This document shows positions 1 through 45,200 of a stretch of 64,000 bases of DNA, piece by piece (position 1 is the first letter of the stretch; the number at the start of each line of letters is the position of its first letter). The position numbers and the translations under genes were made by a program. The DNA lies in contig JAGCNL010000011.1 of assembly GCA_017645945.1 (NCBI GenBank), positions 1 to 64,000 on the forward strand, written 5' to 3'. The stretch comes from Salinivirgaceae bacterium (lineage in GTDB: Bacteria; Bacteroidota; Bacteroidia; Bacteroidales; SZUA-534). Below the pieces are notes generated by a model that made no database searches, was not told the origin of the DNA, and was given only the letters and a program-made list of their open reading frames with translations.

Positions 1-830
1 GCAATGGTTGTTGAACCATCTTTCACCGATGAAACCGTCGGAGTTTTAGCCGAGCCGTCGTAGGTGTACGAAGTCTGGCTCAACGCGATGGTCGGGCTTG
101 AAACCTCCTTCGGGCTGATGGTGAACGTTGCCGAGCCGCTGACGGTGTAGTTGCCGTTGGCCTTGTCGGCGATGGTTACGGTTGCCGTTCCAGCATTGGT
201 GTTGTTGCTGTAACTAACGGTGTATTCGCCTGATGCAATGGTTGTTGAACCATCTTTCACAGTCACAGTCGGTGTCTGAGCCGAGCCGTTGTAGGTGAAC
301 GAAGTCTGGCTCAACTCGATTGTCGGGTTCGAAACCACCTTCGGGCTGATGGTGAAGGTTGCCGAGCAGTTGCTGACGGTGTAGTTGCCGTTGGCCTTGT
401 CGGCGATGGTTACGGTTGCCGTTCCAGCATTGGTGTTGCTGCTGTAACTAACAGTGTATTCGCCTGATGCAATGGTTGTTTCTCCGTCTTTTACAGTCAC
501 GGTCGGTGTCTGAGCCGAGCCGTTGTAGGTGAACGATGTTGCACTCAACTCGATTGTCGGGCTTGAAACCACCTTCGGATTGATTGTGAAGGTTGCCGAG
601 ACGCTGCTGACGGTGTAGTTGCCGCCTTCCTTGTCGGTGATAGTTACCGTTGCCGTCGTGCCAGCATTGGTGTTGTTGCTGTAACTAACGGTGTATTCGC
701 TCGGATCAATGGTTGTTTCTCCGTTTTTAACAGTCACTGTCGGTTCAATTGCTGAGCCGTTGTAGGTGAACGAAGTCTGGCTCAGCGTGATAGTTGGGCT
801 TGAAACAGTCAGCGGCAAAATGGTAAACTG
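1..830 (-). repeat. Tandem Ig-like repeats, about 235 bp per unit
   Basis: The codons for the FTYNGSAxxPTVTVKDG motif recur at about 20, 255, 489 and 725, a spacing of roughly 235 bp (about 78 residues). Copies are highly similar at the DNA level. The array is cut by the window edge, so the copy number is unknown. Confidence 0.85.
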
Positions 831-3800
831 CTTGCTAACTGTATTGCCCCAATGAATGGTTGCCGTGCCAGGGGTAATGTTATTCTCATAAGTTGGTTCG
901 GCAATCGAACCGCCAAAAATGAAAGTCTTGTCACACATTGTGCGGTTGGTATAACTTACCTCAATTCCGTTTCCAATGGTATAAGCCGAACCTTTGTATG
1001 GTACACTTTCGGCAGATAGTGTTATATCGTTTTCGGCAATTTGGTCATAAACAAAACTGCCGTTTCCTACCAAGTCATTACCAGCAATGGTTCCGTTGCA
1101 AATGATTGTTCCATTGTTGGTGATTACCGCGTCATCTGTTGTTGTTACCGATGCTCCTGCGGGAATCTTCAATGTTTTGCCTTCGGCAACCTCGTAATTG
1201 GTGGCCACAACCAAATCACCTGTTACGGTTATAACGTTGTACGACTGTAAGGTGTAGCCCGTAACCGCATTGTGGCTTTCGTCAAACACAGGCGTGGCAT
1301 CGGAATACAATGTCTGCCGCCATGTTGTACCATTGAAATCGCTGTCATTCAGTTTATAAGCAACTTGGCCGCTTGCAAAAGCATTCTCTGAATAATAAGC
1401 ACCATCAGTACCATTGCTTGACGAGAGTGTTACCAAACTGTAGCAGTTGGTTTGGGTGCCACCCCTACCACCGCAAATGCAGCCATAATAGGAAGAACCA
1501 GAAACTGTTCCTGTGTCATAGCAGTTGGTTTGGGTGCCTTGATAGCCGCAAATGCCGCCTACATAGCTTTTACCCGAAACCGTTTCTATGTTGTAGCAGT
1601 TGGTTTGGGAGCCTTGATTGCCGCAAATGCCGCCGACATAGTTATTAGAACCCGAAACCTTTCCTGCGTTGTGGCATTTGTTTTGGGTGCCTTGATCGCC
1701 GCAAATGCCGCCGACACAATTACCAGAAGACGAAACTGTTCCAGTGTTGTAGCAGTTGGTTTGGGTGCCATTACCACCGCAGATGCCGCCGACATAGTAA
1801 GAATTAGAAGAAGTACCCGAAACCGTTCCTGTGTTGTAGCAGTTGGTTATGGTGCCACGACAACCGCTAATGCCGCCAACATAGTTATTAGAACCCGAAA
1901 CCCTTCCTGTGTTGTAGCAGTTGGTTATGTTTGTATTATAACCATATCCGCAAATGCCGCCTGTAAATTTATACCCATATAAATAAGAACCAGTAACTCC
2001 GACGTCCTTTATCGTCGCTCCGTTGGCATAGCCTATCAGACCAACATAATTTTCTCCATCGGGGTAATTGCTGTTAGTTGTATTATTAAAATACAAGCCG
2101 CTAATGGTGTGACCGTTACCATCGAATGTGCCTGCATAGATATAAGAAGAAGTTCCAATCGGTGTCCATGTCATGAAACTGCTGCCGTCGCCGTTGAGTG
2201 AACCAGAAGAATTCAGAACGTTTGAGTTCACAACAATGTCGGCCGTCAGGACAGCATTGTCAGTGGTGTTTCCTGAGTTGACATGTGCGGCGAACCAATA
2301 AAGGTGTCCCGCATTGGCTATCTGGTACACACCATCGACAGAATTTGGCTGTTCTGCATCTCCACATATACATAATCCGTTTATTATGTGGTTATGTTCA
2401 AGAATGCCATTGGAATTGTTACTGTATGGACACGGAGTCGACGCATAAACCACACGATGGGTATTATCGAACAAAGGCAGTTTGTCCTCGCCAATGGTCT
2501 GATACCATGTTAGTGTGCCTTGGCTTGTGCTTCCGTTGAGCAGATAGGCTATTTTACCGCTTGCAAACTCATTCTCTGTAGCCGAAACACCGTAAGTGTT
2601 TTTACTGCCGCAGCTTGCCAAATAGTAGCATTGGGTTTGGGAGCTACCATTACCGCAAATGCCGCCGACATAGTTTCCACCCGAAACCTTTCCTGTGTTG
2701 AAGCAGTTGGTTTGGGTGCCACCACTACCGCAAATGCCGCCGACATATCTGCCTTCACTCAAAGTATTACCTGAACCCGAAACCGTTCCTGTGTTGTAGC
2801 AGTTGGTTTGGGTGCCACCAATACCGCAAATGCCGCCGACATAGGTATTACCTCTAATATATGAATCAATAACTCCGACGTTCTTTATTGTCGCTCCATT
2901 GGCATAGCCTATCAGACCAACATAATTCCCTCCTCCACTGGAATAGGAGTTGTTAGTTGTATTATTAAAATACAATCCGCTAATGGTGTGATAGTTGCCA
3001 TCGAATGATCCTTTGAATTTACTGGCACTTGTGCCGATTGGTGTCCACGGCATAAAGAGGCTTCCGTCGCCATTAAGTGTGCCGTTTTCGTTCAGCACAT
3101 TCTCGTTCACCACAATGTCGGCTGTCAGAATACCTTTGATATCCCAACCTCCAGAGTTAACATTTCTGGCGAACCAATAAAGGTTCCCCGCAGTGGCTAT
3201 CTGATAAACATCGCCAACCATATTCGGCTCGGTTGGAACAATGCCCGTAACAGTGAACTCGTTTCCAAAGGTTACTGTGGCTGGCATAGTTCCGTTGCCT
3301 GGTGTTGTAATTATCCTGGCAACACTTTTGTTGAGTACGAGATATTTGTTGTCGTCTTTTGTGAATTGCAGCCCGCTTTTGCTGAAATCGGCGTTGCTGG
3401 TAATGATTATCGATGTCAGACCCGTGCAGCCACTGAAAGCATTGGCGCCGACGCTTGTCACATTGGCGGGTATGTTTATCGTTGAAAGAGTTGTGCAGTC
3501 TTTAAATGCATCGGCGGCGATGCCTGTAATCGAGAAACTGTTGCCGCTAGTTACCGATGTAGCTATTGTCACGTTGTTTGCGCACGAATTAGCCGCAACC
3601 ATAACATTGTATTTGTTAAGCACCGCATATCGTATGCCATCTTTAGTAAAGCACAGTCCGCTGTTGCTTAAATCAACGGTCTCGCTGTTTACGGTTACTG
3701 ATGTCAAACGCGTGCAGTTTGCAAAAGCATCATCCCAGACTCTAGTAATATTTTGGGGTATTACTATCGATGTCAGGTTGCTGCAACCATAGAACGCAGA

Positions 3801-5090
3801 GGAGCCTATCGAAGTTACTGAATTAGGTATGGTTACCTCTCTCAGACTCCAGCAACCATAAAACGTATTGGTGCCTATCATAGTTACTGAATTAGATATG
3901 GCTACCGATGTCAGACCGCTGCAATTGTAGAACGCAGAGTTGCCAATCGAAGTTACTGAATTAGGAATGGTTATCCCCGTCAGACTGATGCAATTATTGA
4001 ACGCAGCGTTGCCTATTGAAGTTACTGATTCAGGGATGGTTATCTCTGCCAGGCTGCCGCATCTGTAGAACGCAAAGCCGCCTATCGAAGTCACCGAATT
4101 AGGTATGGTTACCGATGTCAGGTTCCAGCAATTCTCAAACGCAGCGTATGGAATATAACTGCTGCCAGTAATCACCACTTCTTTCAGCGATGTCGGGATA
4201 TAGTAGTGAGCACCTGTCGTAGAACTTGTGCTGCTGCCATAGTAATTTTGTTCGGTTTTTGTTCCGCCCGTATAACTGCTTTCGCCGAAAATATAGCCAA
4301 ACGGGTATTGATAATTATCGGTTGGTGCGTGCGGTCTGTTGCCAACAAACGGCAGTGTGATTTTTGTCAGGCCGCTGCAACCACCGAATGCAGAAATGCC
4401 AATCCTAGTTACTGAATTAGGAACGGTTACCTCTGTCAGGCCTTTGCAACCACTGAACGCATACTTGCCAATCGAAGTTACTGATTCAGGAATGCTTACC
4501 GATACCAGACTGCTGCATTTATAAAACGCATAGTCGGCTATCGAAGTCACCGATTCGGGAATAACCAAATTGATTACCTCCGTCCCGCCTGTATAAAAAT
4601 GTTTGGCATAGTATAAAGGATTGGAAAGGTCATTCCCATAACTGATTCCGAAAAAACTCTCGATGCTTGAAAATACTGCTTTATCCAGGCTACTGCAACC
4701 ACTGAACGCATCGTATCCAATCGAAGTTATTGTGTTAGGAATGGTTATCGATGTAATGTTTGCACAGTCCTTAAACCCTTCGTTGGCAATGGCCGTAACC
4801 TGATAATATGCTCCATTAAGATAGACTCTTTCATCAATTGTAATCGCCCCCGATTTATTACGGTTTCCTTCGAATATACTAACATAGTGGTTCGTTTCAT
4901 CGATAACCGTGTATTGCGTTGTGCCATTCACAACGTAGGTTTGCGCCCATGTCTGCCCCACAATCAGTGTGGCAAAAACAAATGTCAGCAAACATTTCAT
5001 TGCTTTGGACTTGAACAGTCCGCTTAGGGCGCGTCTGCCGCTTTGGGGAGACTCCGCCATTGTCATAAGAAATTGTCGAATCTTTCTCAT
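1..5090 (-). CDS. Giant BspA-like surface protein (LRR + GLUG + Ig-like repeats), C-terminus outside window
   Basis: An uninterrupted reading frame starts with ATG at 5090 and runs off the left edge, giving about 1696 visible residues. I checked the frame at 5090, 4061 and 56 and it is constant. The N-terminus has a long basic region, then a signal peptide with an in-frame Met at 5000 (MKCLLTFVFATLIVGQTWAQ), so export is likely. Domains in order are: BspA-type leucine-rich repeats (motif IPNSVTSIGxxAFxxCxxL, about 4790-3300); two GLUG modules, each introduced by an IANAGHLYWFA-like strand and followed by YVGGICG repeats (about 3230-2530 and 2330-1370); then Ig-like repeats of about 78 residues (about 820-1). 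BspA-like proteins are adhesins. A type IX sorting tail may lie beyond the edge but cannot be seen. It lies downstream of three micro-ORFs on the same strand. Confidence 0.9.
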   Translation of the reverse strand, partial: MRKIRQFLMTMAESPQSGRRALSGLFKSKAMKCLLTFVFATLIVGQTWAQTYVVNGTTQYTVIDETNHYVSIFEGNRNKSGAITIDERVYLNGAYYQVTAIANEGFKDCANITSITIPNTITSIGYDAFSGCSSLDKAVFSSIESFFGISYGNDLSNPLYYAKHFYTGGTEVINLVIPESVTSIADYAFYKCSSLVSVSIPESVTSIGKYAFSGCKGLTEVTVPNSVTRIGISAFGGCSGLTKITLPFVGNRPHAPTDNYQYPFGYIFGESSYTGGTKTEQNYYGSSTSSTTGAHYYIPTSLKEVVITGSSYIPYAAFENCWNLTSVTIPNSVTSIGGFAFYRCGSLAEITIPESVTSIGNAAFNNCISLTGITIPNSVTSIGNSAFYNCSGLTSVAISNSVTMIGTNTFYGCWSLREVTIPNSVTSIGSSAFYGCSNLTSIVIPQNITRVWDDAFANCTRLTSVTVNSETVDLSNSGLCFTKDGIRYAVLNKYNVMVAANSCANNVTIATSVTSGNSFSITGIAADAFKDCTTLSTINIPANVTSVGANAFSGCTGLTSIIITSNADFSKSGLQFTKDDNKYLVLNKSVARIITTPGNGTMPATVTFGNEFTVTGIVPTEPNMVGDVYQIATAGNLYWFARNVNSGGWDIKGILTADIVVNENVLNENGTLNGDGSLFMPWTPIGTSASKFKGSFDGNYHTISGLYFNNTTNNSYSSGGGNYVGLIGYANGATIKNVGVIDSYIRGNTYVGGICGIGGTQTNCYNTGTVSGSGNTLSEGRYVGGICGSGGTQTNCFNTGKVSGGNYVGGICGNGSSQTQCYYLASCGSKNTYGVSATENEFASGKIAYLLNGSTSQGTLTWYQTIGEDKLPLFDNTHRVVYASTPCPYSNNSNGILEHNHIINGLCICGDAEQPNSVDGVYQIANAGHLYWFAAHVNSGNTTDNAVLTADIVVNSNVLNSSGSLNGDGSSFMTWTPIGTSSYIYAGTFDGNGHTISGLYFNNTTNSNYPDGENYVGLIGYANGATIKDVGVTGSYLYGYKFTGGICGYGYNTNITNCYNTGRVSGSNNYVGGISGCRGTITNCYNTGTVSGTSSNSYYVGGICGGNGTQTNCYNTGTVSSSGNCVGGICGDQGTQNKCHNAGKVSGSNNYVGGICGNQGSQTNCYNIETVSGKSYVGGICGYQGTQTNCYDTGTVSGSSYYGCICGGRGGTQTNCYSLVTLSSSNGTDGAYYSENAFASGQVAYKLNDSDFNGTTWRQTLYSDATPVFDESHNAVTGYTLQSYNVITVTGDLVVATNYEVAEGKTLKIPAGASVTTTDDAVITNNGTIICNGTIAGNDLVGNGSFVYDQIAENDITLSAESVPYKGSAYTIGNGIEVSYTNRTMCDKTFIFGGSIAEPTYENNITPGTATIHWGNTVSKQFTILPLTVSSPTITLSQTSFTYNGSAIEPTVTVKNGETTIDPSEYTVSYSNNTNAGTTATVTITDKEGGNYTVSSVSATFTINPKVVSSPTIELSATSFTYNGSAQTPTVTVKDGETTIASGEYTVSYSSNTNAGTATVTIADKANGNYTVSNCSATFTISPKVVSNPTIELSQTSFTYNGSAQTPTVTVKDGSTTIASGEYTVSYSNNTNAGTATVTIADKANGNYTVSGSATFTISPKEVSSPTIALSQTSYTYDGSAKTPTVSSVKDGSTTI
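1437..2820 (-). repeat. GLUG-motif DNA repeats in two clusters
   Basis: The element GCAGTTGGTTTGGGTGCC (on the plus strand) or close variants recurs about every 75-90 bp. There are seven copies at about 1440-1930 and three at about 2625-2815. They encode the GTQTNCYNTGTVSGxxYVGGICG repeats of the surface protein. Near identity between copies makes slippage or recombination possible. Confidence 0.85.
3300..4790 (-). repeat. BspA-type leucine-rich repeat block
   Basis: About ten repeats of roughly 69 bp encode LTxVTIPNSVTSIGxxAFxxC. Examples lie around 3780-4110 and 4370-4560. An irregular segment around 4180-4340 interrupts the regular spacing. Confidence 0.85.
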
Positions 5091-5147: not shown

Positions 5148-5231
5148 TCATAAACTGATACCATACAGCACGCAGCAGACGAGAACCAGAATGAAAAGGG
5201 TACATATTAATATGCTGGCAAACTTTTTCAT
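5148..5231 (-). CDS. Micro-ORF 3, 27-residue hydrophobic peptide
   Basis: ATG at 5231, TGA at 5148. The 27-residue product begins MKKFASILICTLFILVLVCC and is a single hydrophobic segment after a KK start, so a membrane peptide is likely if translated. It starts 4 bp after the stop of micro-ORF 2 and ends 57 bp before the giant surface protein gene. It is too short to confirm by codon statistics. I recognise no family. Confidence 0.4.
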   Translation of the reverse strand: MKKFASILICTLFILVLVCCVLYGISL

Positions 5232-5235
5232 GGCT

Positions 5236-5346
5236 CTAACGGTTTAGGTTAAAACTGCCGCCCGCAAACTGCCCCTTGCTGGGAGCGCACTTTGCCATCC
5301 GTGAGTTGATGGCCGCAAACAGAATCACAATAGTTGCAATAATCAT
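5236..5346 (-). CDS. Micro-ORF 2, 36-residue peptide with N-terminal hydrophobic segment
   Basis: ATG at 5346, TAG at 5236. The product begins MIIATIVILFAAINSRMAKC, a short hydrophobic stretch, and continues with a Gly/Asn/Ser-rich tail ending in NLNR. It starts 19 bp after micro-ORF 1 stops and ends 4 bp before micro-ORF 3 starts, which is operon-like spacing. No family is recognised. Confidence 0.4.
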   Translation of the reverse strand: MIIATIVILFAAINSRMAKCAPSKGQFAGGSFNLNR

Positions 5347-5365: not shown

Positions 5366-5479
5366 TTAGTTTCTGACAACAATGTAGGTTGTGAGTTTCA
5401 GGTTGGCCAATTTGCAACTTGTTACTTTCACTTTGCCGTTAGCGGCGTTCGTCTGGTTTTTAATCTCTTGTTTTTCCAT
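5366..5479 (-). CDS. Micro-ORF 1, 37-residue polar peptide
   Basis: ATG at 5479, TAA at 5366. The peptide begins MEKQEIKNQTNAANGKVKVT, is polar and Lys/Asn-rich with one Cys, and ends TYIVVRN. It is the first of three tandem micro-ORFs on the strand of the giant surface gene. About 190 bp upstream are the LytTR-type direct repeats. It has no recognisable domain. A structural RNA or leader role for this stretch cannot be excluded. Confidence 0.4.
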   Translation of the reverse strand: MEKQEIKNQTNAANGKVKVTSCKLANLKLTTYIVVRN

Positions 5480-5629
5480 AGTTTATGTTATTTTAAAAGT
5501 TTAGAAGGTTGAGCGCTTCGCTGTTTAGAAGGTTTAGTTTCCAAGTTTTCTCAACTTTCTAAACCCTCTCAACTCTCTCAACAATCTCCAAAATTTTCAA
5601 TCATTTCACTCGATTCTATTTCTCGCTTT

Positions 5630-5637
5630 CAAAGGTC
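5630..5637 (-). promoter_or_regulatory. Weak -7-like box for the micro-ORF/surface-protein transcript
   Basis: The minus strand reads GACCTTTG, one mismatch from the Bacteroidota -7 box TAnnTTTG. The LytTR-type repeats end about 34 bp upstream, which would place them just upstream of the -33 position. This is the normal place for an activator at a weak promoter. The assignment is inferred. Confidence 0.35.
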
Positions 5638-5672
5638 AGCATGCCGATTTTAAAAAACAATAGCCGAAAAAT

Positions 5673-5741
5673 GAACGGCGGGTTTCACTTAACGAACGGC
5701 GGGTTTCACTTAACGAACGGCGGGTTTGACTTAACGAACGG
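5673..5741 (-). promoter_or_regulatory. LytTR-type operator: 21-bp direct repeats
   Basis: Three full 21-bp units start at 5673, 5694 and 5715, with a partial fourth at 5736. On the minus strand each has the core CCGTTCGTT, and the units differ at only one position. LytTR proteins (AlgR, AgrA) bind 9-10 bp direct repeats about one double-helix pair of turns (21-22 bp) apart. The core is close to the AlgR site CCGTTCGTC. A LytTR regulator gene starts 310 bp to the right. Confidence 0.7.
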
Positions 5742-5903
5742 TTTTTCAAAATGGCCAAAAAAGGCTCAAAATCGACCATTTTTTGAGTGATTTTCGAGCC
5801 CAAAACGCGGATTTTTTGATTTTCGTCCGAAAAACGTGAATTTTATCTCTAACCGATGCTATCCGATTTTAACCGATTTAATCCGCAAGCGGATTTTCTG
5901 TCT

Positions 5904-5969
5904 CTAACCAAACTAATCCAAATGAATCCTAAAAACTTATTTGGATTAAATTAGGGTTCGTTTGGTTAG
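5904..5969. repeat. Large imperfect inverted repeat
   Basis: CTAACCAAAC (5904-5913) pairs with GTTTGGTTAG (5960-5969), and AATCCAAAT (5915-5923) pairs with ATTTGGATT (5939-5947). The outer and inner stems are separated by 1 nt on the left and 12 nt on the right. It could be a protein-binding palindrome or a terminator-like hairpin upstream of the response regulator. Confidence 0.55.
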
Positions 5970-6034
5970 AACCAATTTTTCGTGCTTGGCAACAAAAAAC
6001 CTACTCAATCGCTTGGTTTTTAAATAAAAAACCC

Positions 6035-6049: not shown

Positions 6050-6784
6050 ATGAAAGTTGTGATAATAGACGACGAGCAAAGCGGTCGCGATGTGCTTAGA
6101 AGTTTCATCACCACCCTTTGCCATGATATTGAGATCTGTGGTGAGGCCGACTCAGTGAAAAGCGGCGTCAAACTCATCACCAAGTGCAATCCCGATGTTG
6201 TTTTTCTCGATATTCAGATGCAGGACGGCACAGGCTTCAATCTGCTCGAGATGCTGCCCCAGCGCACCTTCAAGGTCGTCTTCTGCACCTCGTTCGACCA
6301 GTTTGCGCTCAAAGCCATCAAATACAGCGCCGCCGACTATCTGCTGAAACCCATCGACCCCGATTTGTTCATTGAGACGGTGGAGAAGCTGCAGTCCGAT
6401 GTCAGCAAGAAACGCTCTGACAACCGCATCGACGAGCTGCTGTCGAACATCAACAGTTTTGAGAAAATTGCCCTGCCTGTGGGCGATGGCATCCAGTTTG
6501 TCAAGGTCGACGATATTGTCCGCTGCGAGGCCGACGGCGTCTACACCCGCTTCTCCATTGTCGGCGGAACCAATATTCTGGTATCGAAAAACCTGAAGAA
6601 CTACGAGGATTTGTTCTCTGACCGCGGCTTCATCCGCGTCCACAAGTCGCACCTGATAAACACCCGCTACATCGACAAATACCTCAACAGCGGTGGCGAC
6701 GGCGGCAGCGTTGTCATGGCCGACGGCTCCACAGTGGAAGTCTCCCGCCGCAAAAAAGATGAGCTTTTAGGGATGATGATGTAA
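6050..6784 (+). CDS. LytTR-family response regulator
   Basis: A 244-residue DNA-binding response regulator. The receiver domain (about 1-120) has the acidic pair D7/D8, phospho-acceptor D54 (VVFLDIQM), T80 and K100 (DYLLKP). The LytTR domain (about 135-240) contains FVKVDDIVRCEADGVYTRF and the RVHKSHLIN motif typical of the family. No sensor kinase is in the window, so it is an orphan here. The adjacent 21-bp direct repeats are likely binding sites. Regulation of the micro-ORF/surface-protein transcript, and perhaps of itself, is inferred from position only. Confidence 0.95.
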   Translation: MKVVIIDDEQSGRDVLRSFITTLCHDIEICGEADSVKSGVKLITKCNPDVVFLDIQMQDGTGFNLLEMLPQRTFKVVFCTSFDQFALKAIKYSAADYLLKPIDPDLFIETVEKLQSDVSKKRSDNRIDELLSNINSFEKIALPVGDGIQFVKVDDIVRCEADGVYTRFSIVGGTNILVSKNLKNYEDLFSDRGFIRVHKSHLINTRYIDKYLNSGGDGGSVVMADGSTVEVSRRKKDELLGMMM

Positions 6785-6817: not shown

Positions 6818-7165
6818 TTAATCGTTTTCAAGATATTTTTTCAAATCCGGCACGTCTTCCAACGATGTGTTCCATGTCAATTCATAGTCGATTGTGCCGT
6901 AACGGTGCGCGAACAAATCTCTCATTCGGGCAATATCGCGCCAAGGAATGCCAATATGCTCGGTTTTGAAATCATCGGAGAGATTTTTCACAAGTTCACC
7001 TATTTGTAAAATGGGCATTGAGATTGAATTGCGGTAGATAAAGCCATTTTCCTTATCAAAAACAGCTCCTTATTCGTATTGAAACTCTTATGCGTCTGTG
7101 CAATCTCGTCACAGTAACGCACTATCTTGTTTTTTTATCAGCAGGTCGCGCTCATTTGTTTCCAT
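6818..7165 (-). pseudogene. hepT: HepT-like HEPN ribonuclease toxin, frameshifted
   Basis: The N-terminus starts at ATG 7165 (METNERDLLI) and overlaps the end of mntA. Frame is lost at an A7 run (about 7136), giving a stop a few codons later. The middle part (KIVRYCDEIAQTHKSFNTNK) is readable only in another frame. Frame is regained after a T5 run (about 7059) and continues as an open C-terminal part to 6818. That part contains the HepT catalytic motif R-x4-H-x-Y (RDLFAHRY). One extra A and one missing T would explain both breaks. The gene is either inactivated or affected by two homopolymer sequencing errors. HepT toxins are RNases silenced by MntA. Confidence 0.8.
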
Positions 7166-7451
7166 AAATTTCCACTCCTTCCGCTTCGGCCGCGCTGATA
7201 AGTTGTTTGTCATCAGAAGTATCGGTAATGACATCGACATGAGTACCAAGCACCGATTCAAGCTCAGCCACAAAAGCCGAATACTGCAGAAGTGACCGCA
7301 TTCGTCCGCGGCTAATCAGAAAATCGTAGTCGCTGTGGGGTTTGTTGTCGCCACGCGCACGCGAGCCGAACAATTTTACCCTGCTCACTCCATATTTGGT
7401 AGCAATCGGAATAATGCTTGACGCAAGAATATTTATGCTGGCAGTAGTCAT
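7152..7451 (-). CDS. mntA: MntA-like nucleotidyltransferase antitoxin
   Basis: A 99-residue minimal nucleotidyltransferase. It has the GSRARG motif (G29, S30), metal-binding D41 and D43 (SDYD) and a third acidic residue in HVDVITD (D73), so the active site looks complete. MntA antitoxins inactivate HepT by adenylylating a Tyr near the HEPN active site. It overlaps the start of hepT by 14 bp, the usual coupled order. With hepT apparently broken, it may be a leftover antitoxin. Confidence 0.85.
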   Translation of the reverse strand: MTTASINILASSIIPIATKYGVSRVKLFGSRARGDNKPHSDYDFLISRGRMRSLLQYSAFVAELESVLGTHVDVITDTSDDKQLISAAEAEGVEIYGNK

Positions 7452-42206: not shown

Positions 42207-45200
42207 TTAATATTTAACAACTTTCTGCTGCAAGACCTTCGCATCGGTTACGAACCGCAGAATGTAAATTCCGCTTGGCAAATCGCTGATGTCGATTGTG
42301 GCGTCAAAGCTGTCAACATTGACAATCCGAACCACCTGACCAGACTGCGACAGCAACTCAATTCTGCCGCCAGCCATCGAACCAGACGCGCTCACTTTGA
42401 ACAGACCTTCAGTCGGGTTAGGCACAATGGTCAGATTTTCAATCTCACTGCCTGTGTAAAGCACTGCCACAACCTTATCGGCGTATTCTCTATTACCGTC
42501 AAAATCAACTTGCGACAGACGGTAGTAGAGCTGTCCCTGCTCTGGAGCATTATCAGTGAACTGATAGCCAAGCAGACTGCTCGAATTGCCAGCACCGTCA
42601 ACATAGCCGATGGTTACGTAGTTGACACCATCAATCGAACGCTCAATCTCGAAGTAGTTGTTATCATTCTCCGATGCTGTCGCCCAGTCAAGCACAATGG
42701 TGTTGCCCTCCTGACGCCCTGTGAAGGCCACAAAGGTGACGGGAAGAGGATTGATGGTGGGGTCGGCATTTGTTGCACCAAATGAGAATGCGCTGTACCT
42801 TGAAACCGGTTCCTTGGTGGTTATCGAATTACCCGAAATATCACCTTCGAGTTTTTCCCAAGTACCATCTTTCAATTGATGTGCAATATACAATCCGTCG
42901 TCTTGAGTAACACCGCTGAAATCAGACCAGTAGAGAGTAATATAGCTACCACTGTTACCATCGATATTCCACGTTTCCTGAACACTTACGCGTTCCATGC
43001 TGCCAATTAACTCTTTATCGGTTATTGCCGGTTTAGAGCCATCGTAGGCATAGCTGGCCGTGAATTCGGCGCCACTGGCTGTTGGGGTAACACGTACTGG
43101 TGCGGCATGTTCGGCGCCACCAATCTTAAAGTCGAAGGCGCGCGTGTCGCCCCACAGCTTTTTCACCTCACCATTTACCCAACTGCTACCCGACATTGAA
43201 CCTTCAGAACCAATGATAATCTGGTTGTCAGCTTTTACAACTCCGCCGTTCATCACTAATGCATGATGGATTGTTGTAACATCCACTACCTCAACAACGT
43301 TGCTGTTGCTGAAAGTAATATCGTAGAACGATCCGTTGCCTTTAATCTGCTGTCCCTCGCCACCATCAATCTCAACGACACTGCCAGTAAAGCTGCCAGC
43401 ATTATTCAGAGCGCCTTTTACAGCAATAGGATTGTTTGCTATAACTGCACCATTATTGGTCAAATTGGCAAAGGTAACCGATGAGCCTTGAACCGTATGG
43501 TCACCGTTGCTAAATTCAACAGTACCACTGCCCGTGAACTCGCCAGCACTCTCTACATTGCCGTTGATTGTCAGTTTCTTGTCACTGTCAACCTCAATGC
43601 TGCCCGACTCAAGTTTAATGTTCTTGACAACTGCATCCTCAGCAGCAACCTTTGGCAAATCTAGCGGAGTGTCATCAGAAGAGTCGCTGTCTTTGGTAAT
43701 CTTCTTGCCTTCGCGGACAACCACGTTTGTACCCTTACCCGGTATCTCGCCTGCCCACCAGTTGGTTTTTTCATTCCAATCATCCGTTGTTCCTCGCCAG
43801 AGGTAATCCTGACTGATAGCTTGTTCAGCGATCTCGTATGTCGACGAGCAAATCTTGTTGTTCGCCCCATCGTCTTTCACGGTCAGCACACCTTTCATCT
43901 TATCGGCCTTCGGAACCTCGATTTTTATTGTCCTACCTGTCACGAAATTACCCGTAAAGTCATCTGGTTTGTTACCGCTTGTGTAAACTACACCATCGCT
44001 ACCGTATGCGAACGAATAATTATTCGGAGCAACGCTGCTGGTTTTTTCCCAATTGAGTTGTGCAAGGTTGCCGATATACATATCGTCAACATTAAGCGAA
44101 AGGTTGTCACCCTTGAGAGTTGGGGTTTCACGGACCTTAAGCGTTTTAACCGCTGTTGGACGACTGCAACCTCCATTGCTAACCAAAACTTTAAGCGAAT
44201 GATTTCCTACACCCAAACTACTGTTTGTACCAAGATTTGCAGGCTCACTGCCAGAAAGCGTTAACGACGGACTAAGCTCTACGCCATCCGAGTTATAAAT
44301 CTGGTAACTCAAACCATTCGGCTTAAGTATTCGAACCTCCGCCTGAGCATTGTTGCAAGCATCTCCCGGAATGGTGAAATCATCGTCATCGAACGCGAAA
44401 TTGTCGCGCAAGGTTATCATTCGTTTTGTGTCGTTTGATATATTTGAATAACCAATTCTAGAAGTTTCAGTAACTACCAATGTCGCATAATCATTTCCAT
44501 AATTCTTAAACCATACAACCTGGCATTCGTTTTTATTATAATCATAGATTATGCCGGCTTCGTATGTCCTTGTGTTACCACTCGTTCCAACCAAAGCACA
44601 ACCTTCCATTCCCCATTCATAAGAATGAGTACCTACTGTTTCCGTCCAATATGTGTACTTATCGTAATCGGAATAAGGTGCACTTGCAGTAGAAGCCTTG
44701 CAAGCTATAAATGCATCGCCTGTTGTTGCATTCACAACGCCTTTAATATCGGGTTGCGGCTTATTCATAACAGTTACAAGCATTGTGTTTGCGCGTGAGC
44801 AGGTTTTTCCAACCTCCAAGGTCCTGTAAGATTGAGTCGCCGTTAATGTGACAGAATACTCAGTATAGGTGAACATTCCATCACCTCGAGCAAATGTTAT
44901 TTCAGCATTTGCTATTGTAGCATCGGCTATTGTTGCCTTGGCCTTATTTGACGACCACAAGTACTCGTCATCCCAATCGGATGTGGCAACTGAATACAAG
45001 CGTTTGTCTTCCATTCCCACATATTCCTGACCAGTGATTTCTGGCACAGCATTGTAATATACTGTTACAATAGCCTTGTTTGCCTTTTCGGCCACACCAG
45101 CCACTCCGCCTTCCGATACCGACTCAAGCGAGATAGTGTATGCCATTGGCTGTCCACTACCATCAGCCTTAAATCCCTCGGCCTGACCAAACATTGCCCC

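Follow-up and report, generated by a model that had tools for sequence, protein, structure and literature searches.

What role do 21-bp direct repeats play next to the gene of a LytTR regulator in a member of the Bacteroidota? The repeats lie in the window, by which we mean the whole stretch of 64,000 nucleotides of a Salinivirgaceae contig that was analysed here. Judged by comparison of sequences, they probably form a tandem site bound by a LytTR response regulator, with the next-door protein as the likeliest candidate, upstream of a predicted leftward promoter with Bacteroidota -33 and -7 elements.

Four tandem half-sites beside a LytTR gene

On the minus strand, the array and its predicted promoter read (CCGTTCGTT-N12)3-CCGTTCATT-N7-TATTG-N20-GACCTTTG (Table 1); the plus-strand half-sites are AATGAACGG at 5670 and AACGAACGG at 5691, 5712 and 5733. 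Tandem Repeats Finder placed the array at 5673-5741 with a period of 21, 3.3 copies and 97% matches. The earlier note had described exact 21-bp repeats with no spacer variation. The strict 21-bp period stands, with four half-sites, but "exact" is slightly wrong, since a single base deviates in one spacer and another in one half-site: the third spacer is GGGTTTGACTT as opposed to GGGTTTCACTT in the others, and the first half-site has T in place of C. A chance repeat was ruled out by dinucleotide shuffling, as the 9-12-9 pair (up to three mismatches) occurs three times in the window, all within the array, compared with a mean of 0.19 pairs in 100 shuffled windows, none of which (0/100) reached three.

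The spacing is the 9-12-9 layout of LytTR sites, in agreement with the binding geometry claimed earlier. A LytTR-type direct repeat calls for at least two repeats of about 9 bp with about 12 bp between them; the array has four half-sites at 21 bp. Its core was rightly said to lie one base from the AlgR core, the mismatch between CCGTTCGTT and CCGTTCGTC being the last base, and the gene beside it is indeed of the LytTR type: the adjoining ORF (6050-6784) encodes a response regulator that combines a receiver domain (PF00072, 70.8 bits) with a LytTR domain (PF04397, 60.1 bits). No Rfam family was found in the array region.

Between the array and the LytTR gene, an imperfect hairpin with 21-nt arms (86% complementary) spans 5903-5970, and similar arms were seen by eye near other array copies. 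Also on the minus strand are a small, putatively nucleotidyltransferase-like ORF at 7152-7451 and a short, putatively HEPN-like fragment at about 6820-7040; the two are perhaps the remains of a toxin-antitoxin pair.

Table 1. Features of the array locus in the window
Feature	Position	Strand	Basis
Secreted BspA-type LRR_5 protein, probable target	3..5090	-	Pfam LRR_5 366.5 bits
Class 3 leader microORF, 27 aa, hydrophobic (MKKFASILICTLF...)	5148..5231	-	
Class 2 leader microORF, 36 aa, hydrophobic (MIIATIVILF...)	5236..5346	-	
Class 1 leader microORF, 37 aa, MEKQEIKNQTNAANGKVKVTSCKLANLKLTTYIVVRN	5366..5479	-	Codon-position bias, genus matches
Predicted start site	near 5625	-	
Predicted -7 element, GACCTTTG (consensus TAnnTTTG)	5630..5637	-	TTTG at offset in 39/41 arrays
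Predicted -33 element, TATTG, 7 bp past last half-site	5658..5662	-	TTG at offset in 39/41 arrays
Four tandem 9-bp half-sites, 21-bp period	5670..5741	-	Same layout in genus arrays
Half-site CCGTTCATT, promoter-proximal	5670-5678	-	
Half-sites CCGTTCGTT	5733-5741, 5712-5720, 5691-5699	-	
Conserved A+T rich stretch upstream of array	5742..5900	.	Common to other arrays
LytTR response regulator, best candidate array binder (putative)	6050..6784	+	PF00072, PF04397, DNA-binding-domain similarity, linkage

The array belongs to a family found throughout the genus

The window's genome (G000; 3.67 Mb, 87 contigs) contains five arrays of four half-sites each. A whole-genome motif scan, as the earlier note had recommended, returned these repeats, and the window holds not a single site but one of five arrays. 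When no more than one mismatch was allowed, the half-site pair matched 11 of 11 genomes of the genus, which consists of Salinivirgaceae MAGs from rumen, omasum and abomasum, versus 1 of 49 others; the reversed control gave one match among the 60 genomes. The sole match outside the genus (L078 in G057) sits inside a repetitive ORF and was dropped. After leaving out L078 and L087, which holds the same two arrays as L086, we counted 41 distinct genus arrays, with four half-sites in 29, three in 1 and two in 11. Array identity was 88-99% in seven of the nine locus pairs compared, and most flanks were less alike. No array was found at G009 C15, where an adhesin adjoins a LytTR paralogue.

Predicted promoter geometry

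Counted from the start of the last half-site, TTG occurs at offset 18 and TTTG at offset 45, each in 39 of the 41 genus arrays. The exact pattern CCGTTC-N10-TATTG-N24-TTTG has 30 sites in the 11 genus genomes and none in the reversed control; G005 has no exact match, and its arrays mostly carry CCTTG instead of TATTG. Across 141 units, the 9-bp core is more informative than most of the spacer. These elements fit those given for Bacteroidota promoters as TTTG at -33 and TAnnTTTG at -7 (PMC7366714), with a -7 box spanning -12 to -5 (PMC9723704). By arithmetic from the latter placing, the proximal half-site pair is predicted to be centred near -60. The array thus has the position expected of a LytTR site, just upstream of the -35/-33 element with the proximal pair near -60, at offsets fixed in 39/41 arrays. 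We therefore read it as a predicted tandem activator site before a Bacteroidota-type promoter that would fire leftward, toward the BspA-like surface-protein gene and not toward the regulator gene. Autoregulation of LytTR was rejected as the main role: the promoter geometry faces the opposite way, and the content on the LytTR side varies between loci. A second promoter may lie on that side of the array.

Most arrays face genes for probable giant secreted proteins

Three of the 41 arrays lie too near a contig end for a target call. In the other 38, an ORF of at least 858 aa comes first after the array in 31; three face a 125-156-aa protein and then a second secreted-looking ORF, and four face something else. 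The small protein, itself secreted-looking (MRRKFFIGLFFAAVL...), follows the arrays at L063, L072 and L095, and its L072 copy matched no Pfam or NCBIfam family over cut-off. The probable target in the window is visible over 1696 aa; its C terminus lies past position 1, where window and contig both begin. Among 10 complete C termini picked from 21 listed target ORFs, nine carried the TIGR04183 type IX secretion sorting domain above the 23-bit cut-off. G000 holds 50 TIGR04183 matches overall, which means that only a minor share of its cargo genes comes under the arrays. Elsewhere in the window (42213-42428, minus strand), a type IX sorting-domain match ends a 5549-aa open frame; no array precedes this giant secreted protein.

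A conserved leader microprotein

Small ORFs of three recurring types often sit between the promoter and the large ORF (Table 1). Class 1 ORFs are 36-45 aa long, and KVKV...KLANLKLTTY is invariant in nine of nine sequences. The variable sites of the class number 5, 0 and 13 at codon positions 1, 2 and 3 (p 0.0008), pairwise codon differences comprise 218 synonymous versus 57 non-synonymous changes, and class 1 is clearly under coding selection. The same codon-position test gave no coding signal for classes 2 and 3 (p 0.45 and 0.23, respectively). A class 1 profile found 11 strong matches (E <1e-14) in eight of the 11 genus genomes and nothing better than 0.04 in the 49 genomes outside the genus. 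Known arrays accompany nine of these matches. The other two loci, both in G004, were predicted to have the promoter as well, and both turned out to carry it: CCGTTCCTA-N12-CCGTTCGTG-N7-TATTG lies just upstream, with TTTG at offset 45.

None of the leader ORFs matched a Pfam or NCBIfam family over cut-off; the 27-aa class 3 ORF gave a sub-threshold match to Phr_nterm (19.9 bits, cut-off 25). The string KLANLKLTTY was absent from the literature searched, which took in few subscription papers, and class 1 is apparently one undescribed microprotein family. It is a speculative and doubtful idea that the class 1 microprotein acts within the circuit together with the two hydrophobic microORFs, for example as a peptide signal or secretion helper feeding back on the kinase/LytTR pair; if it were true, each surface-protein operon would carry its own sensing or export module under a tandem LytTR promoter.

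Three-site promoters beside LytTR genes outside the genus

A pattern scan of the phylum with two mismatches matched 10 of 395 genomes. The reversed control matched too, and single weak phylum matches were therefore ignored, except G302 (Ignavibacteriae), with three sites, and G355, with one. A class scan matched 3/395, the window's own genome included, and the other two are likely chance. G302 and G355 belong to other families. In G302 (C44) and in G355, the secreted protein that the array is predicted to drive has a LytTR regulator and a Reg_prop kinase as neighbours; in G355 the pair was identified by Pfam. Searching the 395 phylum genomes with the G355 regulator gave 18 matches at 64-100% identity, G355 and G302 included, followed by the window LytTR (45%, E 4.5e-56) and G450 C39 (42%).

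The linkage test set 16 orthologue loci, whose regulators are 64-84% identical and among which G355 and G302 were not counted, against 16 paralogue loci from other genomes, each scored by its best three-site promoter. At a score of at least 20, a threshold set after the scores had been viewed, 12 of 16 orthologue loci from nine genera passed versus 0 of 16 paralogue loci (Fisher 1.6e-5), counts that are not independent because the loci are related. At a threshold of 19 the figures were 12/16 and 3/16; 19 was also the maximum among 80 shuffled control sequences. The four remaining orthologue loci had no three-site promoter (scores 16-17). In 11 of the 12 positive loci LytTR is followed by a kinase-like ORF similar to the G355 one and then by the array, and in L293 other genes lie between. 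After the array come secreted or large ORFs in several positive loci, an opposite-strand ORF in L290 and L292, and a contig end in L299. The genetic linkage to a LytTR regulator that a LytTR site should display is thus found. The LytTR reading is firmer than adjacency would make it because 12/16 orthologue loci carry the same three-site promoter; with the 9-12-9 spacing and this promoter near the LytTR gene, the LytTR site predicted in the earlier note is the best-supported reading, in which a LytTR protein would bind.

Several other repeats share the core. Repeat families of CCGTTCGTT at 21 bp, seen at L166 (about 3475, reverse strand), L175, L143, L148 and L153 in a Bacteroidetes MAG (L166), Fibrobacter, Nostoc and Williamsia, were set aside, being without the promoter geometry. 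The full promoter geometry appears in a Flavobacteriales MAG (L174, 3276-3350), where the array lies at a hydrolase-like ORF's end and no target gene stands out downstream.

The window LytTR and its relatives

Nine LytTR genes were counted in G000, and two of these are closely related to the window LytTR. Of the nine DNA-binding domains, that of the window LytTR is closest to the G355 and G302 regulators (47.5% and 39.6%, BLAST), and among G000 genes the window LytTR is the best match to the G355 regulator (45%). In trees built from 33 of 49 LytTR rows for the DNA-binding domain and 31 for the full length (L101, without a LytTR frame, is missing), the array-linked G355/G302 pair and the window clade fall in one larger LytTR group, with uneven internal support. 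Among the 60 matches listed in a PDB search with the window LytTR, most covered the receiver domain and none clearly the LytTR domain. The protein has a receiver domain and stands alone, without the operon with a membrane inhibitor that marks LRS regulators of the S. mutans type.

In each of the 11 genus genomes the window LytTR has a single close orthologue (66-92%), generally downstream of a histidine kinase ORF; the kinase in G001 has TPR and His_kinase domains, and several relatives come after a histidine kinase of the TPR or Reg_prop type. The orthologue has an array no more than 2.5 kb away in three of the 11 genomes (G000, G001 and G007), compared with about 0.08 expected by chance, and the G001/G007 arrangement is probably common by descent. 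In G002, whose LytTR is 92% identical, a decayed array of two half-sites lies 1.4 kb upstream, and the adhesin is absent there. In the other 7/11 genomes, neither an intact nor a decayed array was found near the orthologue, which in G010 lies at a contig end.

Discussion

Genome comparison documents the array, the geometry and conservation of its predicted promoter, its likely targets and the LytTR linkage in other lineages. In the mechanism that we propose, phosphorylated LytTR dimers would bind half-site pairs on one face of the DNA, because 21 bp make two helical turns. The proximal pair near -60 would contact or recruit RNA polymerase, extra half-site pairs would raise occupancy, and the kinase would set the signal. 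The transcript would hold first the small leader ORFs and after them the gene of a giant secreted surface protein, in most cases type IX cargo such as a BspA-like LRR adhesin, and within the genus the module would have spread to several loci per genome, yielding a small regulon. We infer that the LytTR protein binds, that it activates rather than represses, that a signal is involved and that the window LytTR, not a paralogue, serves all arrays.

The binder could differ from the one favoured here. The adjacency of kinase and array would also fit with control by another regulator co-inherited at the locus. We think it unlikely that one or more other LytTR paralogues, such as the C4 or C45 gene, bind the arrays and that the window LytTR is adjacent by historical accident. 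The choice among nine LytTR genes, the presence of the C45 type in all 11 genus genomes and the arrays on other contigs without a close LytTR speak for a paralogue, but the window DNA-binding domain is the nearest to the array-linked G355/G302 regulators, the whole protein is the best G000 match to the G355 regulator, and C4-type genes have altered residues in the DNA-binding domain. Tandem direct repeats serve other regulators too, so a binder outside the LytTR family, for instance another response regulator or a sigma-factor co-activator, was considered; it appears improbable given that the 9-12-9 layout and AlgR-like core are the same and that LytTR neighbours recur at unrelated loci.

A different reading would make the arrays a dispersed, MITE-like element with incidental promoter activity, similar to BrickBuilt of Porphyromonas gingivalis. 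BrickBuilt consists of intergenic tandem 23-nt repeats and has promoter activity (PMC4596501); it differs in a variable repeat number of up to 22.8 and inverted-repeat ends, and the passages seen report no LytTR link. Five copies in one genome, set within a longer conserved stretch, and several array loci at contig ends, would suit such an element. Against it, inverted repeats clearly delimiting the copies were not observed in the window region, copies hold orthologous positions across species, their orientation to secreted-protein genes is fixed, and distant families have identical geometry in different sequence. We hold this reading to be highly improbable. The earlier note had named a dispersed family unrelated to LytTR genes as the case that would undo its prediction; the repeats do recur, but as a promoter family linked to LytTR genes.

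A tandem LytTR site remains our preferred reading, and it can be set beside known systems. AgrA of Staphylococcus has a direct-repeat pair centred near -60 (PMC4227749), and for the LRS regulators HdrR/BrsR of Streptococcus mutans the 9-bp repeats are in most cases separated by 12 bp and lie some 10 bp from -35 (PMC6193735). The likeness is that of direct repeats just upstream of a promoter; unlike these, the arrays here have up to four half-sites, a -33/-7 promoter, and giant secreted proteins of Bacteroidota with leader microORFs. The AlgR core of Pseudomonas aeruginosa is CCGTTCGTC (PMC4064291), one base off CCGTTCGTT, but AlgR sites are scattered in either orientation and do not form a 21-bp tandem array. 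In Bacteroides thetaiotaomicron and B. ovatus, predicted LRS-like repeats lie 11 bp upstream of a TGTA/TGTG-19-TATCTTTG promoter (PMC6193735). These are again direct repeats upstream of a Bacteroidota promoter, but they are 11-bp repeats 11 bp apart with another core, a membrane-bound LytTR and one pair only. The PorXY-SigP system of P. gingivalis is reported to link two-component control to type IX secretion. It controls secretion-machine genes, whereas the arrays are linked to cargo genes. To our knowledge, PorX is not a LytTR protein.

LytTR direct-repeat promoters are known; what is new is a Bacteroidota variant with an unexpected regulon. In the literature searched for Bacteroidota LytTR sites and type IX cargo control, which included few subscription papers, this arrangement is not described, nor is it reported where a LytTR response regulator of this type would bind in Bacteroidota. 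The array is probably a switch, worked by the adjoining LytTR protein, through which genes for tiny peptides and for giant secreted surface proteins would be turned on. In rumen bacteria, such a switch would tie two-component signalling to the production of adhesin-like giant secreted proteins; a candidate regulator is named, and the same operons hold a conserved new microprotein. LytTR proteins are common in Bacteroidota, and the fixed geometry of half-sites, 7-bp gap, -33 and -7 elements may serve as a tool for finding their regulons.
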